Part shown: positions 2,624 to 14,656 of the stretch, piece by piece
How positions within the stretch are numbered: position 1 is the stretch's first letter
Layout: the number at the start of each line of letters is the position of its first letter
IMG/VR virus record: IMGVR_UViG_3300044993_000633
Coordinates: 1-21,769 of that record
Direction: 5' to 3' (one strand)
DNA length: 21,769 bases
Source: a virus
The notes under the pieces: model-generated
Seen by the model: the letters and a program-made list of their open reading frames with translations, nothing else
Databases searched by the model: none
Told to the model about the DNA's origin: nothing
Made by a program: the position numbers and the translations under genes

Positions 2624-2715
2624 ATTTATAGAGACCCGCGTATGCCCGGGCGATAGAAGTAGTGTTCTATCTTTTAGTGACACGCCACTACACACGTCAC
2701 CTGTTGTATCTCTTA
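2624..2715 (-). ncRNA. Structured RNA copy 2 with complementary hairpin loops
   Basis: Identical to 1204-1295 except position 2682 (A instead of G). In the minus-strand RNA this turns a C-G pair of hairpin 1 into U-G, which still pairs; in the opposite strand it would be an A-C mismatch. That fits a functional minus-strand RNA. The promoter at 2742-2770 would start transcription about 20 nt before it. Its 5' segment CTGTTGTATCTCTTA (plus-strand reading) is duplicated in tandem at 2701-2730. Confidence 0.75.
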
Positions 2716-2741
2716 ACTGTTGTATCTCTTAAGATGTTTTC

Positions 2742-3056: not shown

Positions 3057-3133
3057 TGGTAGCCCCGACGGGTTTCGAACCCGCTTCTCTGCCTTGAAAG
3101 GGCAGCGACCTTCGCCAAGAAGTCCCCGGGGCC
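3057..3133 (-). tRNA. tRNA-Glu(TTC)
   Basis: Acceptor GGCCCCG/CGGGGCT, A73, CCA. Anticodon arm CTGCC-CTTTCAA-GGCAG; T-loop TTCGAAA. Confidence 0.93.
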
Positions 3134-4960: not shown

Positions 4961-5206
4961 GAATAGATTTCCAAATTGTCTTTGTTTATCTCTCGGGGTA
5001 TTAAGACTAAGATGAACTATCTTAGACAAAAAATTAATTATATAATGCCTGGACTGCCTCACCTATAATAAACTTAGTATCAGATATATTCTAATGTAAA
5101 TCAATCAAAAAGATAAATAGTCGTGCGGTAATCATAGAAGTTGCGTTTCTTTGAAACCCAGTCTGGATTCCAGGCTATCCCGCATCATATTTATCTGGAT
5201 ACCAGT
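4961..5206. other. Intergenic stretch upstream of the nuclease gene
   Basis: Contains a 7-bp hairpin CTAAGAT/ATCTTAG near 5008-5026 and AT-rich sequence. No tRNA, convincing promoter or gene was found. The plus-strand nuclease frame is open from 5141, but the start is placed at 5207. Confidence 0.4.
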
Positions 5207-5983
5207 ATGACCACTAATTATTCTTGCCCCGACTGCGGCAAAATGTGTAAATCTTTTAAATCTCTTCGCTCCCATATGAACTGGCACAATCCGAAGTATG
5301 CTAGTTCTTGTTCTGGCAACGGGGAAAAAATACGCAGTAGCCTCAAGGCCAAAGCTGCATACCAGCAGCAAGCAAAAGAAACTCTCTATCTAGAGTCTCC
5401 TAATTACTGTAAACATTGCAGCTCTGTATTACCTTACGCAAAACGCGCTAATATTTTCTGCAATAGTTCATGTTCAGCCTCTCATAACAATCCGAAAAGA
5501 GCCAAACCCAAACAACACAATCCTATCAAAAAAGAGAACAGAAACCCCAAAATAATAATATCTTGTAAAGAATGCGGGGACAATATAGCCGTTCCATCTT
5601 GGGAAAAGTCCCGAAAATATTGCTCGGTCGAGTGTAGCAATAAAAACAAGTATCATCCTAATTCCATTAAAAAACACACTAGTATATATAAAGGTTATAA
5701 AATGGATTCTGGTGCAGAATTAGCATTTGCACAGCTACTAGATTCTCATAATATTACCTGGATAAAAAACTCAACTAAATTTTTTACCTTCATAGATTCG
5801 AAGGGGGTTGTTAGAAAATACTACCCTGACTTTTATCTCACCGAATACGATCATTGGGTAGAAATAAAAGGAAAAAGATATATCCGAGAGGATGATGATC
5901 TAAGATTGAAGTCGGTAGGTGACAATATCGAACTCATAATGAGTCACGATATTAGGCTACCAAGTGTTATAATGGCGGACTAG
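5207..5983 (+). CDS. Zinc-finger PD-(D/E)XK nuclease, homing-type
   Basis: A 258-residue protein on the strand opposite the tRNA array. A C2H2-like finger (CPDC then HMNWH) is followed by two CxxC...CxxxC zinc motifs (CKHC/CNSSC and CKEC/CSVEC) that probably bind DNA. The C-terminal region from SGAELAF through KYYPDF to HWVEIKGKRY carries the E, PD and ExK residues of a Vsr/PD-(D/E)XK nuclease. Nucleases of this design in phages are usually mobile homing endonucleases. The ATG at 5207 puts MTTNY before the first finger; the frame is open from 5141. The stop lies within the acceptor end of tRNA-Asp on the other strand. Confidence 0.78.
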   Translation: MTTNYSCPDCGKMCKSFKSLRSHMNWHNPKYASSCSGNGEKIRSSLKAKAAYQQQAKETLYLESPNYCKHCSSVLPYAKRANIFCNSSCSASHNNPKRAKPKQHNPIKKENRNPKIIISCKECGDNIAVPSWEKSRKYCSVECSNKNKYHPNSIKKHTSIYKGYKMDSGAELAFAQLLDSHNITWIKNSTKFFTFIDSKGVVRKYYPDFYLTEYDHWVEIKGKRYIREDDDLRLKSVGDNIELIMSHDIRLPSVIMAD

Positions 5984-6536: not shown

Positions 6537-6551
6537 ATAATCTTATAAATT

Positions 6552-6612
6552 GGGGTGCCCTATCCCTTGGTATAGAAGACCAAAAGATTAATCTCTTGCT
6601 ATGCCGACACCC
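6552..6612 (-). tRNA. T-armless tRNA-Arg(TCT)-like, copy A
   Basis: Acceptor GGGTGTC/GGCACCC pairs fully and an anticodon arm TTGGT-CTTCTAT-ACCAA has an Arg(TCT) loop. A hairpin AAGAG-ATTAAT-CTTTT sits in the D-arm position, but only six bases (GGGATA) separate the anticodon arm from the acceptor, so no T-arm exists. CCA is absent. It is part of a duplicated unit. Confidence 0.45.
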
Positions 6613-6681
6613 AACATAGCCGTAGTTGTCTATATTTCTAAGATTCAGACAACAAATTCTTATACCTGTAGTCAATAGACC

Positions 6682-6742
6682 GGGGTGCCCTATCCCTTGG
6701 TATAGAAGACCAAAAGATTAATCTCTTGCTATGCCGACACCC
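6682..6742 (-). tRNA. T-armless tRNA-Arg(TCT)-like, copy B
   Basis: Sequence identical to copy A at 6552-6612. Exact conservation after duplication, including the acceptor stem, could mean recent duplication or selection. Confidence 0.45.
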
Positions 6743-6906
6743 AACATAGCCGTAGTTGTCTACCGTTCTGGGTTTATTCCCAGTCAGTATAAGAATCAGA
6801 CAACAAATTCTTATACCTATTGCCCCCTTCATTTTTTTAGGACAATTTAATAATAAAAATACATTTTCTTTATAATTAGGTTACTAATTAACGAATTGTT
6901 GACCTA

Positions 6907-6935
6907 TATATATACATTGTTGTCCGTGTTGTCAA
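6907..6935 (-). promoter_or_regulatory. Host-type promoter TTGACA-17-TATATA
   Basis: GG-TTGACA, 17-bp spacer, TATATA on the minus strand; reads into the duplicated RNA units and the tRNAs beyond. Confidence 0.75.
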
Positions 6936-6971: not shown

Positions 6972-7059
6972 TGGAGGACGTAGTGGGATTCGAACCCACA
7001 CGGCGAATTAACGCGGCAGATTAAGAGTCTGCTGGACCAGCCAATTGTCCAATACGTCC
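6972..7059 (-). tRNA. tRNA-Lys(CTT) with enlarged variable region
   Basis: Acceptor GGACGTA/TACGTCC, U73, CCA; D-stem GGAC/GTCC; anticodon arm GCAGA-CTCTTAA-TCTGC; T-arm GTGGG-TTCGAAT-CCCAC. Sixteen bases (with GCG-TTAATT-CGC) lie between anticodon and T-arms, instead of the usual five for Lys. Confidence 0.88.
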
Positions 7060-7069
7060 ATTTAATTAT

Positions 7070-7146
7070 TGGAGTCCTCGGGGAAACTCGAATTCCCGGC
7101 CTTCAGATTCGTAGTCTGATGCTCTATCCAACTGAGCTACGAGGAC
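7070..7146 (-). tRNA. tRNA-Arg(ACG)
   Basis: Acceptor GTCCTCG/CGAGGAC, U73, CCA; anticodon arm TCAGA-CTACGAA-TCTGA; T-loop TTCGAGT. A34 would normally be edited to inosine to read CGN codons. Confidence 0.94.
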
Positions 7147-7154
7147 TAAATTAA

Positions 7155-7232
7155 TGGAGCGCCAGGCAGGATTCGAACCCGCATGTATCCATTAGCTTTC
7201 TCTTGATTCGAAGTCAAGCGGCATACTGGCGC
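7155..7232 (-). tRNA. tRNA-Arg(TCG) lacking a D-arm
   Basis: Acceptor GCGCCAG/CTGGCGC, U73 and CCA, anticodon arm CTTGA-CTTCGAA-TCAAG and T-arm GCGGG-TTCGAAT-CCTGC are intact. Only seven bases separate acceptor and anticodon arm, so there is no D-arm; 19 bases follow the anticodon arm and contain AATGGATA, which looks like a D-loop. Total length is normal, as if D and variable regions had swapped sides. Confidence 0.75.
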
Positions 7233-7249
7233 AATAATAAAGAGTAATC

Positions 7250-7325
7250 TGGTGCTGCTGGAGGGGATCGAACCCTCGACCTCTTCCTTACCAAGGAAGT
7301 GCAACTTCCGCTGTGCTACAGCAGC
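7250..7325 (-). tRNA. tRNA-Thr(GGT)
   Basis: Acceptor GCTGCTG/CAGCAGC, A73, CCA; anticodon arm CTTCC-TTGGTAA-GGAAG; T-loop TTCGATC. Confidence 0.94.
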
Positions 7326-7332
7326 AAATATT

Positions 7333-7407
7333 TGGTTGCCCCCCTAGGGCTCGAACCTAGATTGACGGATTCAAAGTCCGCTCTCTTGCCAATTAGAGGA
7401 AGGGGCA
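7333..7407 (-). tRNA. tRNA-Gln(TTG)
   Basis: Acceptor TGCCCCT/GGGGGCA with the Gln-type U1-A72 pair, A73, CCA; anticodon loop CTTTGAA; T-loop TTCGAGC. Confidence 0.94.
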
Positions 7408-7443
7408 ATTTGTTCTTAATGTAATATTAGAAAAACAACATTT

Positions 7444-7519
7444 TGGATCCCCGGGATGGCTCCGCCCCATCAACCTCCAGGTTCAGAGCCTGGCGTTCTA
7501 CTAATTGAACTACCGGGGA
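7444..7519 (-). tRNA. tRNA-Gln(CTG), altered elbow
   Basis: Acceptor TCCCCGG/CCGGGGA, U73, CCA; D-stem GTTC/GAAC; anticodon arm CCAGG-CTCTGAA-CCTGG; T-stem GATGG/CCATC. The T-loop is GGCGGAG (G54, G55, C56, G58) and the D-loop AATTAGTA has A18-G19, the same paired change as in Ile and Val. Confidence 0.86.
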
Positions 7520-7524
7520 ATAAT

Positions 7525-7700
7525 AGATGTCAGTAGACTTCTTTCACGAGAAGCTAATTTTCTTCTATCTAACATCTACATTTATAGAATTAAATCATAT
7601 CTAATAAAAACTATCAGGGAATGCGTTTCCATATTACCAAGCAATTTTTTTTATATTACTAAGTAATATAGTGCTGTTTTCGTCGTTGATAGTTTTTAAT
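7525..7700 (-). ncRNA. Two hairpin-based structured segments
   Basis: On the minus strand AGATGT/ACATCT closes a branched segment around 7525-7577. A 10-bp AAAACTATCA/TGATAGTTTT stem (7607-7616 with 7687-7696) encloses smaller hairpins including ATATTAC/GTAATAT. No ORF, tRNA motif or known RNA family was recognised. Confidence 0.4.
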
Positions 7701-7730
7701 AAACATGGAATATAGACATACGGTTTTATT

Positions 7731-7763
7731 GTATTACTTGACAACTCAAAAGTCAAGTAATAC
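7731..7763. repeat. Perfect 12-bp hairpin
   Basis: GTATTACTTGAC and its exact complement are separated by nine bases. Neither strand has a clear U-run after it, so it may be an RNA-stabilising or processing structure rather than a terminator. Confidence 0.6.
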
Positions 7764-8010
7764 TTCGGTTCACGCCTTGCCCAGCTTAAAGCCAGTAGTC
7801 CGCCTTTTGCATAATAGAACTATGTCTATTAGCGGGAAGTAGTTTTTAGCTCTTCCCGACGGAGGTATCCGCGTGTCAGTCCACATTCACCTTCACACAG
7901 TGGAGTTCACCGTGCGCTCAGCTACCCTTTTTCTGATATTACTATCAGACGCGCCTTTCGGGGCACCTAGCTTAACTAGGAGGTCGATGGACTCAACCTG
8001 TTTTAATTTA
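7764..8010 (-). ncRNA. Multi-hairpin structured RNA of about 240 nt
   Basis: Lies between the attenuator-like terminator and the first tRNA. Minus-strand hairpins in order include GGTTGA/TCGACC, CCTAG/CTAGG, TCTGATA/TATCAGA, TCCAC/GTGGA, CGGA/TCCG, GGGAAG/CTTCCC and TAATAGA/TCTATTA. The density of clean stems in an otherwise AT-rich genome points to a structured RNA. I looked for tmRNA, RNase P and group I intron signatures by eye and saw none. Confidence 0.5.
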
Positions 8011-8011
8011 T

Positions 8012-8045
8012 AAAAAACCCCTGAAAATCTTTCGATTCTCAGGGG
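8012..8045 (-). terminator. Rho-independent terminator
   Basis: On the minus strand CCCCTGAGAATC-GAAA-GATTTTCAGGGG, a 12-bp stem with one G-U pair and a GAAA tetraloop, followed by six U. Its first four C are also needed by the preceding long hairpin. Confidence 0.85.
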
Positions 8046-8087
8046 CTAATATAAACACATATACTTTACTATGTTTACATTAGCCCC
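8042..8087 (-). promoter_or_regulatory. Antiterminator-like hairpin overlapping a stop codon
   Basis: GGGGCTAATGTAAACA pairs with TGTTTATATTAGCCCC (16 bp, one G-U). The 3' arm ends in the CCCC that begins the terminator stem, so the two compete. The 5' arm contains the TAA of the 43-codon ORF, so a terminating ribosome would block this hairpin and favour termination. Confidence 0.55.
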
Positions 8088-8211
8088 CGAGCCCCTTAAT
8101 ATTTGATTCGAGGCAAATCTGAGAATTTGCTGGGCAAACGTCCAAACGCATTGCCAGACTGAAATCTTTTCTTAACCAATATTGTTCAAATATGTTACGT
8201 ATCTTAGTCAT
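8080..8211 (-). CDS. 43-aa ORF, possible leader peptide
   Basis: Starts MTKIRNIFEQYW and ends GLGG with its stop inside the antiterminator-like hairpin. AGGA lies about 13 nt before the ATG, a weak fit. It follows the promoter at 8296-8324 and precedes the terminator. No family was recognised. The position suggests a leader whose translation controls readthrough into the RNA region; it could also be an ordinary small protein or a chance ORF. Confidence 0.4.
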   Translation of the reverse strand: MTKIRNIFEQYWLRKDFSLAMRLDVCPANSQICLESNIKGLGG

Positions 8212-8397
8212 ATTAGTATTTAGTCCTGATAAATTAAAACGTATTTTATCTCATATTTTTTAATGTTTTTTATTAAAAAGCAATAATACGTCATAACTAT
8301 ATATGATTCGTATATTGCTGTCAACAAAAAAATTTCATTCTTCAAAAAATTTTTAAAAGAGAAATGATTTCATCATAAATTTCAGCCTGATTAATAC
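8212..8397 (-). other. Leader and intergenic stretch
   Basis: Apart from the promoter at 8296-8324, no gene or strong structure was found. The sequence is AT-rich, and the part left of 8290 should be the 5' leader of the 43-codon ORF. Confidence 0.5.
8296..8324 (-). promoter_or_regulatory. Host-type promoter TTGACA-17-TATAGT
   Basis: TTGACA, 17-bp spacer, TATAGT on the minus strand, feeding the leader ORF and attenuator-like structure. Confidence 0.75.
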
Positions 8398-8575
8398 TTA
8401 CCAAAAGCCAAATAAATAAATGCCCGGGATAACTATAAAAACCAGAGTAAACAACACAATAATCACGTCCTTATAAGTGGTCCTAGACACCGAATTATCA
8501 AATATTGCGAGTGTTACTACAGTCCAAATCAACAGGTTGAACAAAAAAAACAATGTGACCAAGAATAGTAAGCAT
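8398..8575 (-). CDS. Small two-helix membrane protein, frameshift at T8
   Basis: The ATG at 8575 has a strong AAAGGA nine bases upstream and begins MLTILGHIVFF. After a run of eight T (8543-8550) the start frame soon stops, while the shifted frame continues LFNLLIWTVVTLAIF, a polar turn and VIIVLFTLVFIVIPGIYLF to a stop, giving about 58 residues with two membrane helices. Loss of one T would restore one frame. Transcriptional slippage, programmed frameshifting, a real null mutation or a sequencing error are all possible. A TTGACA element lies about 50 bp upstream of the start. Confidence 0.5.
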
Positions 8576-8603
8576 TAATCTGTTCCTTTTGTTATTCAAT
8601 TTA

Positions 8604-8630
8604 ACTATACTCTCTAAGTTAAAATGTCAA
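8604..8630 (-). promoter_or_regulatory. Probable promoter TTGACA/TATAGT, short spacer
   Basis: TTGACA with TATAGT 15 bp downstream on the minus strand (TAGTTA at 17 bp), ahead of the frameshifted membrane-protein gene. It fits the spacing rule less well than the other promoters. Confidence 0.45.
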
Positions 8631-8763
8631 AAGAGTTTTTTATCTGCAATTTGTTTTCTTGAACTTGCCTATCTCTCTCGATAATTAAATCCAATTAAAC
8701 GACAGTTTTTTTAATTTTTTATAATGTCCCAAAAATTATCACGAAGCCAATTTTAATCTTGTT

Positions 8764-9057
8764 TTATTCGATTATATCCTTTTTGCTAGGCTTATGAATT
8801 TGTAAATTTTGATTTAAAATATAATCACTATATTTAAGATAAAACATAACAGCGGATTGCTCAGTGCATATTGTAACAACACCTTCTGAACTTACAGAGT
8901 CTACGCCCAATTTTTCTACAACATACTTAAGAAAATCATAATGCCAATGTTCATTGTATTGTTTATATCTTCGTGAGCGAGGTTCGTTTTCATAGTCATT
9001 CATTAGTTGTACCCAAAAAGATGGATGTATTTTTGCAGTATAATGAAACTCAGACAT
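8764..9057 (-). CDS. Hypothetical protein, 97 aa
   Basis: Begins MSEFHYTAKIHPSFW. The start at 9057 is preferred over the longer frame because it overlaps the stop of the upstream gene (ATGTCTGA arrangement), typical of coupled phage genes. Rich in aromatic and charged residues, with no membrane segment or recognised motif. It probably shares a transcript with the Cys-rich protein before it. Confidence 0.7.
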   Translation of the reverse strand: MSEFHYTAKIHPSFWVQLMNDYENEPRSRRYKQYNEHWHYDFLKYVVEKLGVDSVSSEGVVTICTEQSAVMFYLKYSDYILNQNLQIHKPSKKDIIE

Positions 9058-9289
9058 AATACTTTCCTGCCAAGCCACAATACCCGTGTTCACCCTCGTA
9101 ATCAGGCAACTCTTTACCATAAGTGAATAAATTTGTTACTGGATCTTTAACCCAACGCCAAGCCATACACTCTGAGCCAATACACATTGATGCTTTGTCA
9201 ATGCCCCAGGGGGTTCTATTATAGGGCCCTTGATTATAAAAATTTCTAGAAAAAGGACACCACTTAGTTTTAGCTTGTTCTTCTGTCAT
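9050..9289 (-). CDS. Small Cys-rich phage protein, possible metal binding
   Basis: A 79-residue protein with four Cys in the pattern CPFS...CIGSECMAWRW...YCG (residues 11, 36, 41 and 71). Small proteins with this CxGSxCMAWR motif occur in many phages; the conserved Cys suggest a zinc or iron-sulfur site, but the function is not known. Its TGA stop overlaps the start of the 97-aa gene, implying translational coupling. Confidence 0.78.
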   Translation of the reverse strand: MTEEQAKTKWCPFSRNFYNQGPYNRTPWGIDKASMCIGSECMAWRWVKDPVTNLFTYGKELPDYEGEHGYCGLAGKYYV

Positions 9290-13105: not shown

Positions 13106-13803
13106 GAAATATAATAAATTTTGATATTATTAGCGATTTAAATTTACATCCTGGAGAAGAATTTAATTGGAAAAATAATGTAACCAGCTTGTACTGTATA
13201 ATAGCAGGAAATATAAGTGATGATATAAAAACAGTGGCTAAGGTTTTATTTCACCTATCTACAATTTACCAAGGAGTTTTTTTTGTTCCGGGTTATCTTG
13301 AATATGATAATACTTTCAATTTTGCAGAAAGAACCAGAGAGCTAGCAATAATTGCTGATAATATTAAAAATGTAGTATTTTTATATAATAATATTGTTAC
13401 TATTGACGGAATAGGAATACTGGGTTCAAATGGATGGGGAAATATTTTAAATAACACTGAACCAAAAACATTATTGATGAATGTCTCTAAATATCAAGAT
13501 TATGTATATTTAGAAGCTTCTTTAAAAAAACTTCAACGTTATCCTGATATTAAAAAAATAGTTATTGTTACTAGTGCAGTTCCTAGAGAAGACTTATATT
13601 TTGGAGAAAAACCAGATAACATAATAGATAATATGCCACTGGTGAATATTTTAGTTGAAGATACTGAAAAAAAAGTAGTAACTTGGGTTTTCGGAACTTA
13701 TAAAAAACCAGTAGATGTTTTTTTAGATAGTGTGAATTATATCAGCAACCCGAAAACCCAAGATTTACCTTATCATTCTAAAAGAATAAAAATATCAATT
13801 TGA
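13102..13803 (+). CDS. Metallophosphoesterase-like protein, catalytic motifs lost
   Basis: A 233-residue protein with the outline of a calcineurin-like phosphoesterase, but with the metal ligands changed: SDLNLH (11-16) for DxH, AGNISDD (35-41) for GDxxD, PGYLEY (63-68) for GNHE, VTSAVP (156-161) for the TH motif and FGTYKKP (197-203) for GHTH. The first Asp is kept. It is probably a non-catalytic relative with a binding or structural role; an unrelated fold with chance similarity cannot be excluded. One of two plus-strand genes in the window; its end overlaps the end of clpS by nine bases. Confidence 0.6.
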   Translation: MRNIINFDIISDLNLHPGEEFNWKNNVTSLYCIIAGNISDDIKTVAKVLFHLSTIYQGVFFVPGYLEYDNTFNFAERTRELAIIADNIKNVVFLYNNIVTIDGIGILGSNGWGNILNNTEPKTLLMNVSKYQDYVYLEASLKKLQRYPDIKKIVIVTSAVPREDLYFGEKPDNIIDNMPLVNILVEDTEKKVVTWVFGTYKKPVDVFLDSVNYISNPKTQDLPYHSKRIKISI

Positions 13804-14100
13804 TTCTGGTTCAATTTTTACTTGAAGAGGATACCCACTAGCTCTAGCTTCAAGAATAACCTCAACACCTTTTTGTTCGGCAATTTCATAAGGCAAGACT
13901 GCTACTACAGCACTTCCGTGCTCATGAATATCGGTTGTGATATTTAATGCAGTATCCGGAGAATAATTAAAGTATTTTATTAAAGTAGATACTACAAATT
14001 CCATGGTAGTAGTATCATCATTTAAATAAATGACCTTATAAAAAGGAGGTTCAGATAAATCATGCTTGGGTTTAATTTTAGTTTCTACTCTAGGCATCAT
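13795..14100 (-). CDS. clpS: ClpS-like N-end-rule adaptor
   Basis: A 101-residue protein matching ClpS: PPFYKVIYLNDDTTTMEFVV, then DIHEHGSAVVAVLPYEIAEQKG and GYPLQVKIEPE. ClpS delivers substrates with destabilising N-terminal residues to ClpAP. The Asn-Asp pair (27-28), the Met after TTT and the His of DIHEH, which contact the N-terminal residue, are present; the Met of the LMLxVH segment is replaced by Thr, so specificity may differ. AAGGAAG precedes two possible ATG codons. A phage copy could redirect host Clp proteolysis. It follows hsp20 after a strong hairpin. Confidence 0.9.
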   Translation of the reverse strand: MMPRVETKIKPKHDLSEPPFYKVIYLNDDTTTMEFVVSTLIKYFNYSPDTALNITTDIHEHGSAVVAVLPYEIAEQKGVEVILEARASGYPLQVKIEPESN

Positions 14101-14156: not shown

Positions 14157-14594
14157 TTAGTAAGTAATTTCAATTTTCCTGGGTAACTTATCCTCAGGAA
14201 TAATTCTTTCAAGATTTATTGTTAAAATGCCATTCTTATAATGGGCATCAACAACTTCCACATGTTCAGCTAATGTGAAGTTTCTAGTAAAAGAACGTAA
14301 TCCTATACCTCGGTGGATATATTCTACACCTTCTTCACGAGCTTCTTCTTGTTCGCCCTTGATGGTAAGAATGTTCTTTTCTAGAGTTACAGAAATACTA
14401 CCCTCTTTGAAACCAGCTACAGCAAGCTCAATGGCATACTTATCTTCCGTATATTTTATGATGTTATAAGGAGGATAATTTACATTAGCTTGATTTGTAA
14501 GCTGTGACAGTTCATTAAAGATAGTGTCAAAACCGACACCAAATTTACGGATACTAGGAATATCAAGTGAACGAAGGGTAAGTTCTCTTGTCAT
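14157..14594 (-). CDS. hsp20: Hsp20/IbpA-type small heat-shock protein
   Basis: A 145-residue protein with a complete alpha-crystallin domain (about residues 42-140): PPYNIIKYTEDKYAIELAVAG, LTIKGEQ, RGIGLRSFTRNFTLAEHV and KNGILTINLER. The C-terminal KIEI is the IxI-type motif for oligomer contacts. Small heat-shock proteins hold unfolded proteins and are common in T4-like phages of marine bacteria, often linked to head assembly. The start at 14594 has AAGGAG; the late promoter at 14657-14664 lies upstream. Confidence 0.93.
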   Translation of the reverse strand: MTRELTLRSLDIPSIRKFGVGFDTIFNELSQLTNQANVNYPPYNIIKYTEDKYAIELAVAGFKEGSISVTLEKNILTIKGEQEEAREEGVEYIHRGIGLRSFTRNFTLAEHVEVVDAHYKNGILTINLERIIPEDKLPRKIEITY

Positions 14595-14656
14595 ATAATT
14601 TCTCCTTAAATAAGCAAGAATTTTATGAATAGACCTAATCAGCATCTATTCAAATA

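Follow-up and report, generated by a model that had tools for sequence, protein, structure and literature searches.

The window analysed here, a 21.8-kb IMG/VR phage record (21,769 nt), carries on its minus strand, at 8324-8012, what is by its anatomy a leader-peptide attenuator with a predicted dependence on translation. We regard the leader as probably functional and consider it likely that it acts as a ribosome-operated transcription attenuator responding to translation status; this reading is sequence-based, drawing on the anatomy of the leader, its retention in relatives and its energetics. To our knowledge, it is an open question for what reason large phages have tRNA arrays and whether these are regulated. 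If the reading is true, a translation-status sensor stands at the entrance to phage tRNA and non-coding RNA production, and the leader allows a test of whether a phage adjusts its RNA supply to translation stress in the host. What is new is the unexpected place of a leader-peptide-type attenuator, ahead of a phage structured RNA and tRNAs. Our search of the open-access literature (PMC) found none before a tRNA region of a phage, and the paper on Agrobacterium phage Atu_ph07 contains no word that begins with attenuat-, terminator, leader or promoter.

The leader is carried by a giant phage, and the nearest UvsX proteins to that of the window come from jumbo phages (Phosso, Vibrio phage 2.275.O, XaC1, Atu_ph07, CBB and GAP32; 65-68% identity). 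A search with the GH19 endolysin of the window led to two related contigs, G001 and G002, and to two more matches (L004 and L005) with no tRNAs in the stretch examined. The window and G001 are closely related, and G033 is an independent, more distant phage. The leaders that we call type A were found in these four phages only, and the looser leaders of Atu_ph07 and Sinorhizobium phage Phosso are called type B.

Anatomy of the leader

The first-pass annotation of this DNA had described a host-type promoter followed by a 43-codon ORF, a 16-bp hairpin and a strong terminator, and all four were recovered, the hairpin at a larger size. The promoter, P1, is of the sigma70 type (TTGACA-N17-TATAGT, 8324-8296, match 11/12) and is the best among 11 promoter-like sites within 7000-9200, a count to be read against the roughly 8 such sites that the same simple scan reports in shuffled DNA. 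A possible Shine-Dalgarno sequence, AGGA (8227-8224), lies 12 nt upstream of the ATG, which is a long spacing. The leader ORF (8211-8080) comprises 43 codons and a TAA and encodes 19 different amino acids; its peptide belongs to no Pfam or PHROGs family. As had been claimed, the stop codon (8082-8080) lies within the 5' arm (8091-8070) of a competing, antiterminator hairpin, the 3' arm of which spans 8059-8038. At full extent this hairpin has 22 bp including G-U pairs (-33.6 kcal/mol). The intrinsic terminator (8045-8012) consists of a 12-bp stem with a GAAA loop (8045-8018; -19.5 kcal/mol) and a U6 tract (8017-8012). The two structures do share bases, but eight rather than the four first reported when counted for the full hairpin: the last 8 bases of its 3' arm (8045-8038) double as bases of the terminator 5' arm.

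In the minimum-energy fold of the full leader both stems are present, shortened to 16 bp and 10 bp, so their mutual exclusion is not absolute. The overlapping structures are also near-isoenergetic (hairpin -33.6 versus about -35.2 kcal/mol, the latter from -19.5 plus -15.7), and competition between them must therefore be kinetic or partial. The earlier idea of competition thus stands as regards the overlap and the direction of the switch described below, but not as all-or-none exclusion. As in a ribosome-mediated attenuator, an intrinsic terminator precedes the putatively regulated unit, and in the window, G001, G002 and G033 the antiterminator shares terminator bases and has an arm that a leader ribosome could reach. 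In the window and G001, CTAAATAC lies between the AGGA and the ATG of the leader, so that a late transcript might be without a ribosome site.

Conservation across phages

Although most of the leader sequence has turned over among the type A relatives, the architecture is kept: promoter, ORF, hairpin and terminator stand in the same order in G001, G002 and G033. Comparison of the leader in related phages had been proposed as a check, and all three keep the ORF and the hairpin together with the terminator, the opposite of a terminator conserved by itself. Equivalents of P1 occur at the same position in each (11/12 or 12/12, G033 having 12/12). AGGA precedes the ATG by 12-13 nt also in G001 and G002; the Shine-Dalgarno sequence is distant from the ATG in three leaders, and that of G033 is nearly leaderless and without one. 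ORF length is 43 codons in the window and in G001, 45 in G002 and 39 in G033, with the stop codon inside the hairpin 5' arm in all four, and the spacing from stop to terminator is 37, 41, 38 and 34 nt. The type A peptides are unrelated to one another (a judgement made for G033 by reading the sequence), and a search with the leader peptide gave no match in phages, nor in four relatives including G001 and G002.

The window and G001 can be aligned before the ORF and from the hairpin onward, but not across the middle of the ORF, and despite this both ORFs have exactly 43 codons. Window DNA 8090-7747 matches G001 at 89%, the match beginning at the hairpin, and 8026-7770 matches G002 at 83%. One hairpin pair is changed on both sides between the window and G001 (G-C to A-U), at the cost of a terminator pair, and in G002 and G033 the hairpin sequence is replaced. 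A distant-mode comparison of window DNA 7600-8600 with phages gave no match.

The type B leaders each lie before a tRNA array and encode 42 codons in Atu_ph07 (annotated as AUZ95228.1) and 54 in Phosso (XYS97753.1); the latter was spotted by eye first and later recovered by script. They have a 10-bp stem with its 5' arm 24-26 nt upstream of the stop codon, and their stop-to-terminator spacing is 33 nt (Atu_ph07) and 31 nt (Phosso), giving 31-41 nt over all six leaders.

We scanned 24 contigs (~1.38 Mb) for terminators overlapped by a hairpin whose 5' arm contains the end of an ATG ORF, using a detector loosened after a stricter version had missed the G002 hairpin. Eleven sites were found, 4 of which have same-strand tRNAs within 6 kb downstream: the window, G001, G002 and G033. 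A looser scan of 27 sources, in which a site had to have a promoter match of 9/12 or better and an ORF encoding 18 or more different amino acids, gave 12 sites, and a promoter of at least 11/12 was present at exactly the same four. The gapless competing stem was matched by dinucleotide shuffles in 0/300 cases for the window, G001, Phosso and Atu_ph07, in 1/300 for G033 and in 26/300 for G002, the last because an internal loop interrupts the G002 hairpin, the fold energy of which was matched by 3/300 shuffles.

All five phages with a terminator ahead of their first tRNA (window, G001, G002, Atu_ph07 and Phosso) also have a leader ORF and a competing stem there, and none of the 11 tRNA-array heads lacking a leader has a terminator closer than 1.5 kb. 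Among 11 named phages, no leader was found at the tRNA arrays of nine (CBB, GAP32, CcrColossus, phage G, KVP40, RaK2, DSS3P8, XaC1 and 2.275.O), and the same is true of G053, G055 and G037; arrays cut by contig ends (G057, G060, G063 and G069) were left out of this survey. In 80 ClpS-relative loci (1.10 Mb), just one of which holds tRNAs, no comparable leader was found; the few chance sites there have at most 15 different amino acids each and none is near tRNAs. In the window itself a ClpS adaptor gene (13795-14100, minus strand; PF02617, E 4e-25) lies beside a small heat-shock protein gene (14157-14645, minus strand; PF00011), and the two are also side by side in G001 and G002.

These comparisons bear on whether the leader is instead simply a small phage gene that has a promoter and a terminator of its own. 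Promoter, ORF and terminator would make such a gene complete, and TATAAAT is found right behind the terminator in the window and G001. T4-type late-promoter-like motifs (TATAAATA, TAAATAC) are moreover enriched upstream of G001 and G053 genes, TATAAATA occurring in 9/135 and 7/34 upstream regions, respectively, versus 1.7 and 0.5 in shuffles. However, G002 has no TATAAAT though its leader is kept, the overlap of hairpin and terminator exceeds that in shuffles, and the four peptides are unrelated, yet length, stop position and hairpin have been retained. We therefore think a plain small gene improbable.

Predicted switching by the ribosome

In the attenuation mechanism that we propose, RNA polymerase would start at P1 and a ribosome would load on the 43-codon ORF of the nascent, co-transcriptionally folding RNA. 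An undelayed ribosome would reach the stop codon, cover the hairpin 5' arm and release CCCCUGAG of the 3' arm; the freed 3' arm would allow the terminator to form, and transcription would halt ahead of the structured RNA. If the ribosome stalled within approximately the first 37 codons, or if none loaded, the hairpin would form first and sequester the lower end of the terminator stem, adjacent to the U-tract, giving readthrough into the structured RNA and partly into the tRNA genes, presumably to the benefit of the phage. Since stalling anywhere in these ~37 codons or a failure to load would suffice, the leader would sense general translation status and not one amino acid.

We folded the type A leaders with a 28-nt ribosome footprint stepped along the ORF and read out the probability of the bottom 4 terminator pairs. 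For the window this was.18 without a ribosome,.14 with a mid-ORF stall and.99 with a ribosome at the stop codon; the corresponding values were.02,.09 and.99 for G002,.64,.38 and.98 for G033, and.88,.82 and.98 for G001. The direction is as predicted in all four leaders. The effect is strong in two of them (window and G002), moderate in G033 and, at equilibrium, small in G001. The switch logic put forward in the first-pass annotation, termination after a finished ORF and readthrough when translation is lacking, is borne out by the folding to this extent. Shuffles of the hairpin region matched the change from no ribosome to ribosome at stop (+0.81 in the window) in 0/150 cases for the window, 0/150 for G002, 9/150 for G033 and 2/150 for G001. 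With no ribosome, or with the A-site at or before codon 37, the hairpin holds the first terminator 5'-arm bases at a probability of 1.00 in the window, G001 and G002; in G033 the value is 0.82-1.00 as far as codon 31. Once the ribosome occupies the final codons or the stop codon, the terminator base forms at 0.96-0.99. We infer that the decision by a real polymerase would be kinetic and that the hairpin, being made first, would hence be favoured. Type B leaders are not switched as cleanly by a ribosome at the stop codon: the Atu_ph07 terminator reaches 0.95 when codons 31-37 are covered by the ribosome but 0.57 when the ribosome is at the stop, and that of Phosso is predicted at ~0.9 without a ribosome.

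A translation-independent element could also be imagined, either a constitutive partial terminator that yields short and long RNA in a fixed proportion or an RNase-processed hairpin that frees the structured RNA. The coexistence of both stems in the full-leader fold and the G001 prediction, mostly terminating with or without a ribosome, are in keeping with this. Such an element would have no need of a 39-45-codon ORF with its stop in the 5' arm, which is nevertheless kept in 4/4 phages, and dinucleotide shuffles of the ORF body stay open at frequencies of only 0.109, 0.082, 0.058 and 0.107 for type A (0.177 and 0.061 for type B). We accordingly give this explanation little probability.

Comparison with known attenuators

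Like amino-acid attenuators (trp/ilv; Mycobacterium tuberculosis ilvB1, PMC13236596), the leader combines an ORF with an antiterminator and a terminator that have bases in common, and a ribosome at the stop codon would mask the antiterminator arm, whereas a stalled one would permit it (PMC13236596). PMC4824070 gives 27 nt as the distance past which a ribosome at the stop codon no longer blocks the terminator, and a spacing of more than 20 bp from stop to terminator for amino-acid attenuators; the 31-41 nt of our six leaders exceeds that 27-nt limit, as in amino-acid attenuators. Unlike these, the phage leader has no run of one regulatory amino acid, places its stop codon within the antiterminator arm, shows no protective early hairpin, and precedes a phage structured RNA and tRNAs instead of a biosynthetic operon. 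Because a protective early hairpin was not found, we propose that absent translation would also give readthrough. A classical amino-acid attenuator (trp, his, leu or ilv) was rejected: the type A peptides use 19-20 amino acids, with no single-amino-acid runs and no concentration of regulatory codons of one pathway. His_leader gave a weak match far below cut-off, and no known Rfam leader or riboswitch reached the gathering score in the window.

Besides amino-acid attenuators, the systems that the proposed switch resembles are above all the general translation-stress uORFs whiB7 and toiL (PMC12121999, PMC13236596), together with the DUF1127 uORF (PMC12218461). For the whiB7/wblC uORF of Actinobacteria and E. 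coli toiL-topAI, PMC12121999 reports a response to impaired translation in general: both respond to several antibiotics, whiB7 also to amino-acid starvation, and for toiL stalling at any ORF position is proposed to be sufficient. The whiB7 and toiL leaders control a bacterial transcription factor or a toxin-antitoxin gene, whereas the phage leader precedes non-coding RNA, and toiL works on translation and Rho, whereas the phage leader has an intrinsic terminator. In the S. meliloti DUF1127 system (PMC12218461), translation of the uORF lowers downstream transcription and impaired translation raises it, as we predict for the phage leader, and the uORF is proposed to sense ribosome availability and charged tRNA. 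It differs in being Rho-dependent, with C-rich codons at the uORF start and no intrinsic terminator switch. This Sinorhizobium meliloti leader, which senses translation efficiency through Rho (PMC12218461), is the precedent for a Rho-related or transcription-translation coupling effect, in which leader translation would protect or expose RNA for factors other than the hairpin; with a strong intrinsic terminator in every leader studied, we hold this to be very unlikely.

Amino-acid coverage of the leader peptides

In their 39-45 codons the type A peptides use 19 (the window, which lacks His), 20, 20 and 20 different amino acids. Among equally long coding windows taken from the same phages, the fraction reaching that coverage is 0.049, 0.0045, 0.012 and 0.0089; for random codons drawn at genome composition it is 0.080, 0.012, 0.020 and 0.0068, and for dinucleotide shuffles of the leader that stay open it is 0.187, 0.024, 0.085 and 0.013. 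Combined by Fisher's method, the open shuffles give 0.002 for type A and 0.005 for all six leaders. Since the idea of high coverage arose with the first three leaders, it is tested afresh only by G033 (20 in 39 codons); coverage in type B is unremarkable (18 in Atu_ph07, 19 in Phosso). One tentative reading is that the leader peptide samples all aminoacyl-tRNAs, stalling when any charged tRNA is scarce and thereby inducing the structured RNA and tRNAs; host defences that cut tRNAs, or a collapse of translation, could be triggers. We take the coverage as suggestive of such sampling, not as proof. In 5/5 leaders tested there is no enrichment of codons that the phage's own tRNAs read, which argues against feedback specific to phage tRNAs and not against a general sensor.

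Structured RNA and tRNA genes downstream

Within about 15 nt of the U-tract begins a conserved structured RNA of ~240 nt (8003-7757, minus strand; DNA identity 89% in G001 and 83% in G002). It folds better than 200/200 shuffles (z -4.07), and 6/67 pairs are changed on both sides among the three sequences. It is the most conserved longer DNA stretch common to the window and G001 (89% over 349 nt), longer gene matches between the two being 67-79%; the RNA may therefore be important in its own right. It belongs to no Rfam family at cut-off; the only family reaching cut-off in the window was tRNA, and the best sub-threshold match was CopA (24.1 bits versus 60). The motif was found among viral contigs in G001 and G002 only and in none of the prokaryote genomes searched, and the covariance model R1 (62 and 28 sources) matched the window, G001 and G002 only. 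A looser motif gave 8 stretches, 6 of which we read as chance in coding-like DNA without tRNAs. Among 48 of the 80 UvsX-relative contigs a single weak 25-nt match appeared, and its surroundings (L124) show no such RNA. The G033 leader is followed by a 54-codon ORF and a structured RNA (z -4.55) that R1 does not match and that we therefore do not call homologous; the next same-strand tRNA is 2.6 kb off, and two tRNAs lie upstream of the leader.

Between the structured RNA and the tRNAs lies a second promoter, P2 (TTGACT-N17-TACAAT, 7756-7728, minus strand), present in all three phages (window; G001, 10/12; G002, 9/12). P2 allows tRNA transcription without the leader, so tRNA supply would be at most partly leader-controlled. 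The structured RNA is thus likely the regulated product and immediate target, with the tRNAs second. Of the readthrough target named in the first-pass annotation, the structured RNA stands and the tRNAs only in part, and its coupling of tRNA supply to translation is at most partial, given P2 and the lack of enrichment for own-tRNA codons. The annotation's observation is confirmed and its interpretation partly supported.

The tRNA cluster (7519-326, minus strand) comprises 21 tRNA genes by ARAGORN and 24 by Rfam, along with further RNA elements and the GH19 endolysin gene. A 93-nt element, possibly a structured RNA, is repeated there at 99% identity (1204-1296 and 2624-2716, minus strand) and reaches the cut-off of no Rfam family. 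A 95-nt repeat, 94% identical (6545-6639 and 6675-6769, minus strand), follows a promoter-like TTGACA site near 6930. Between tRNA genes, 2600-2100 (minus strand) is an RNA-like stretch without long ORFs, in which 2151-2247 matches G001 at 80%. On the strand opposite to the tRNAs, 5141-5983 holds an ORF of 280 residues that weakly matches a C2H2 zinc finger and has partial matches in G001 and G002. Finally, the tRNA-Glu gene (3057-3133, minus strand) shares 98% identity with Roseobacter phage DSS3P8 DNA over 58 nt.
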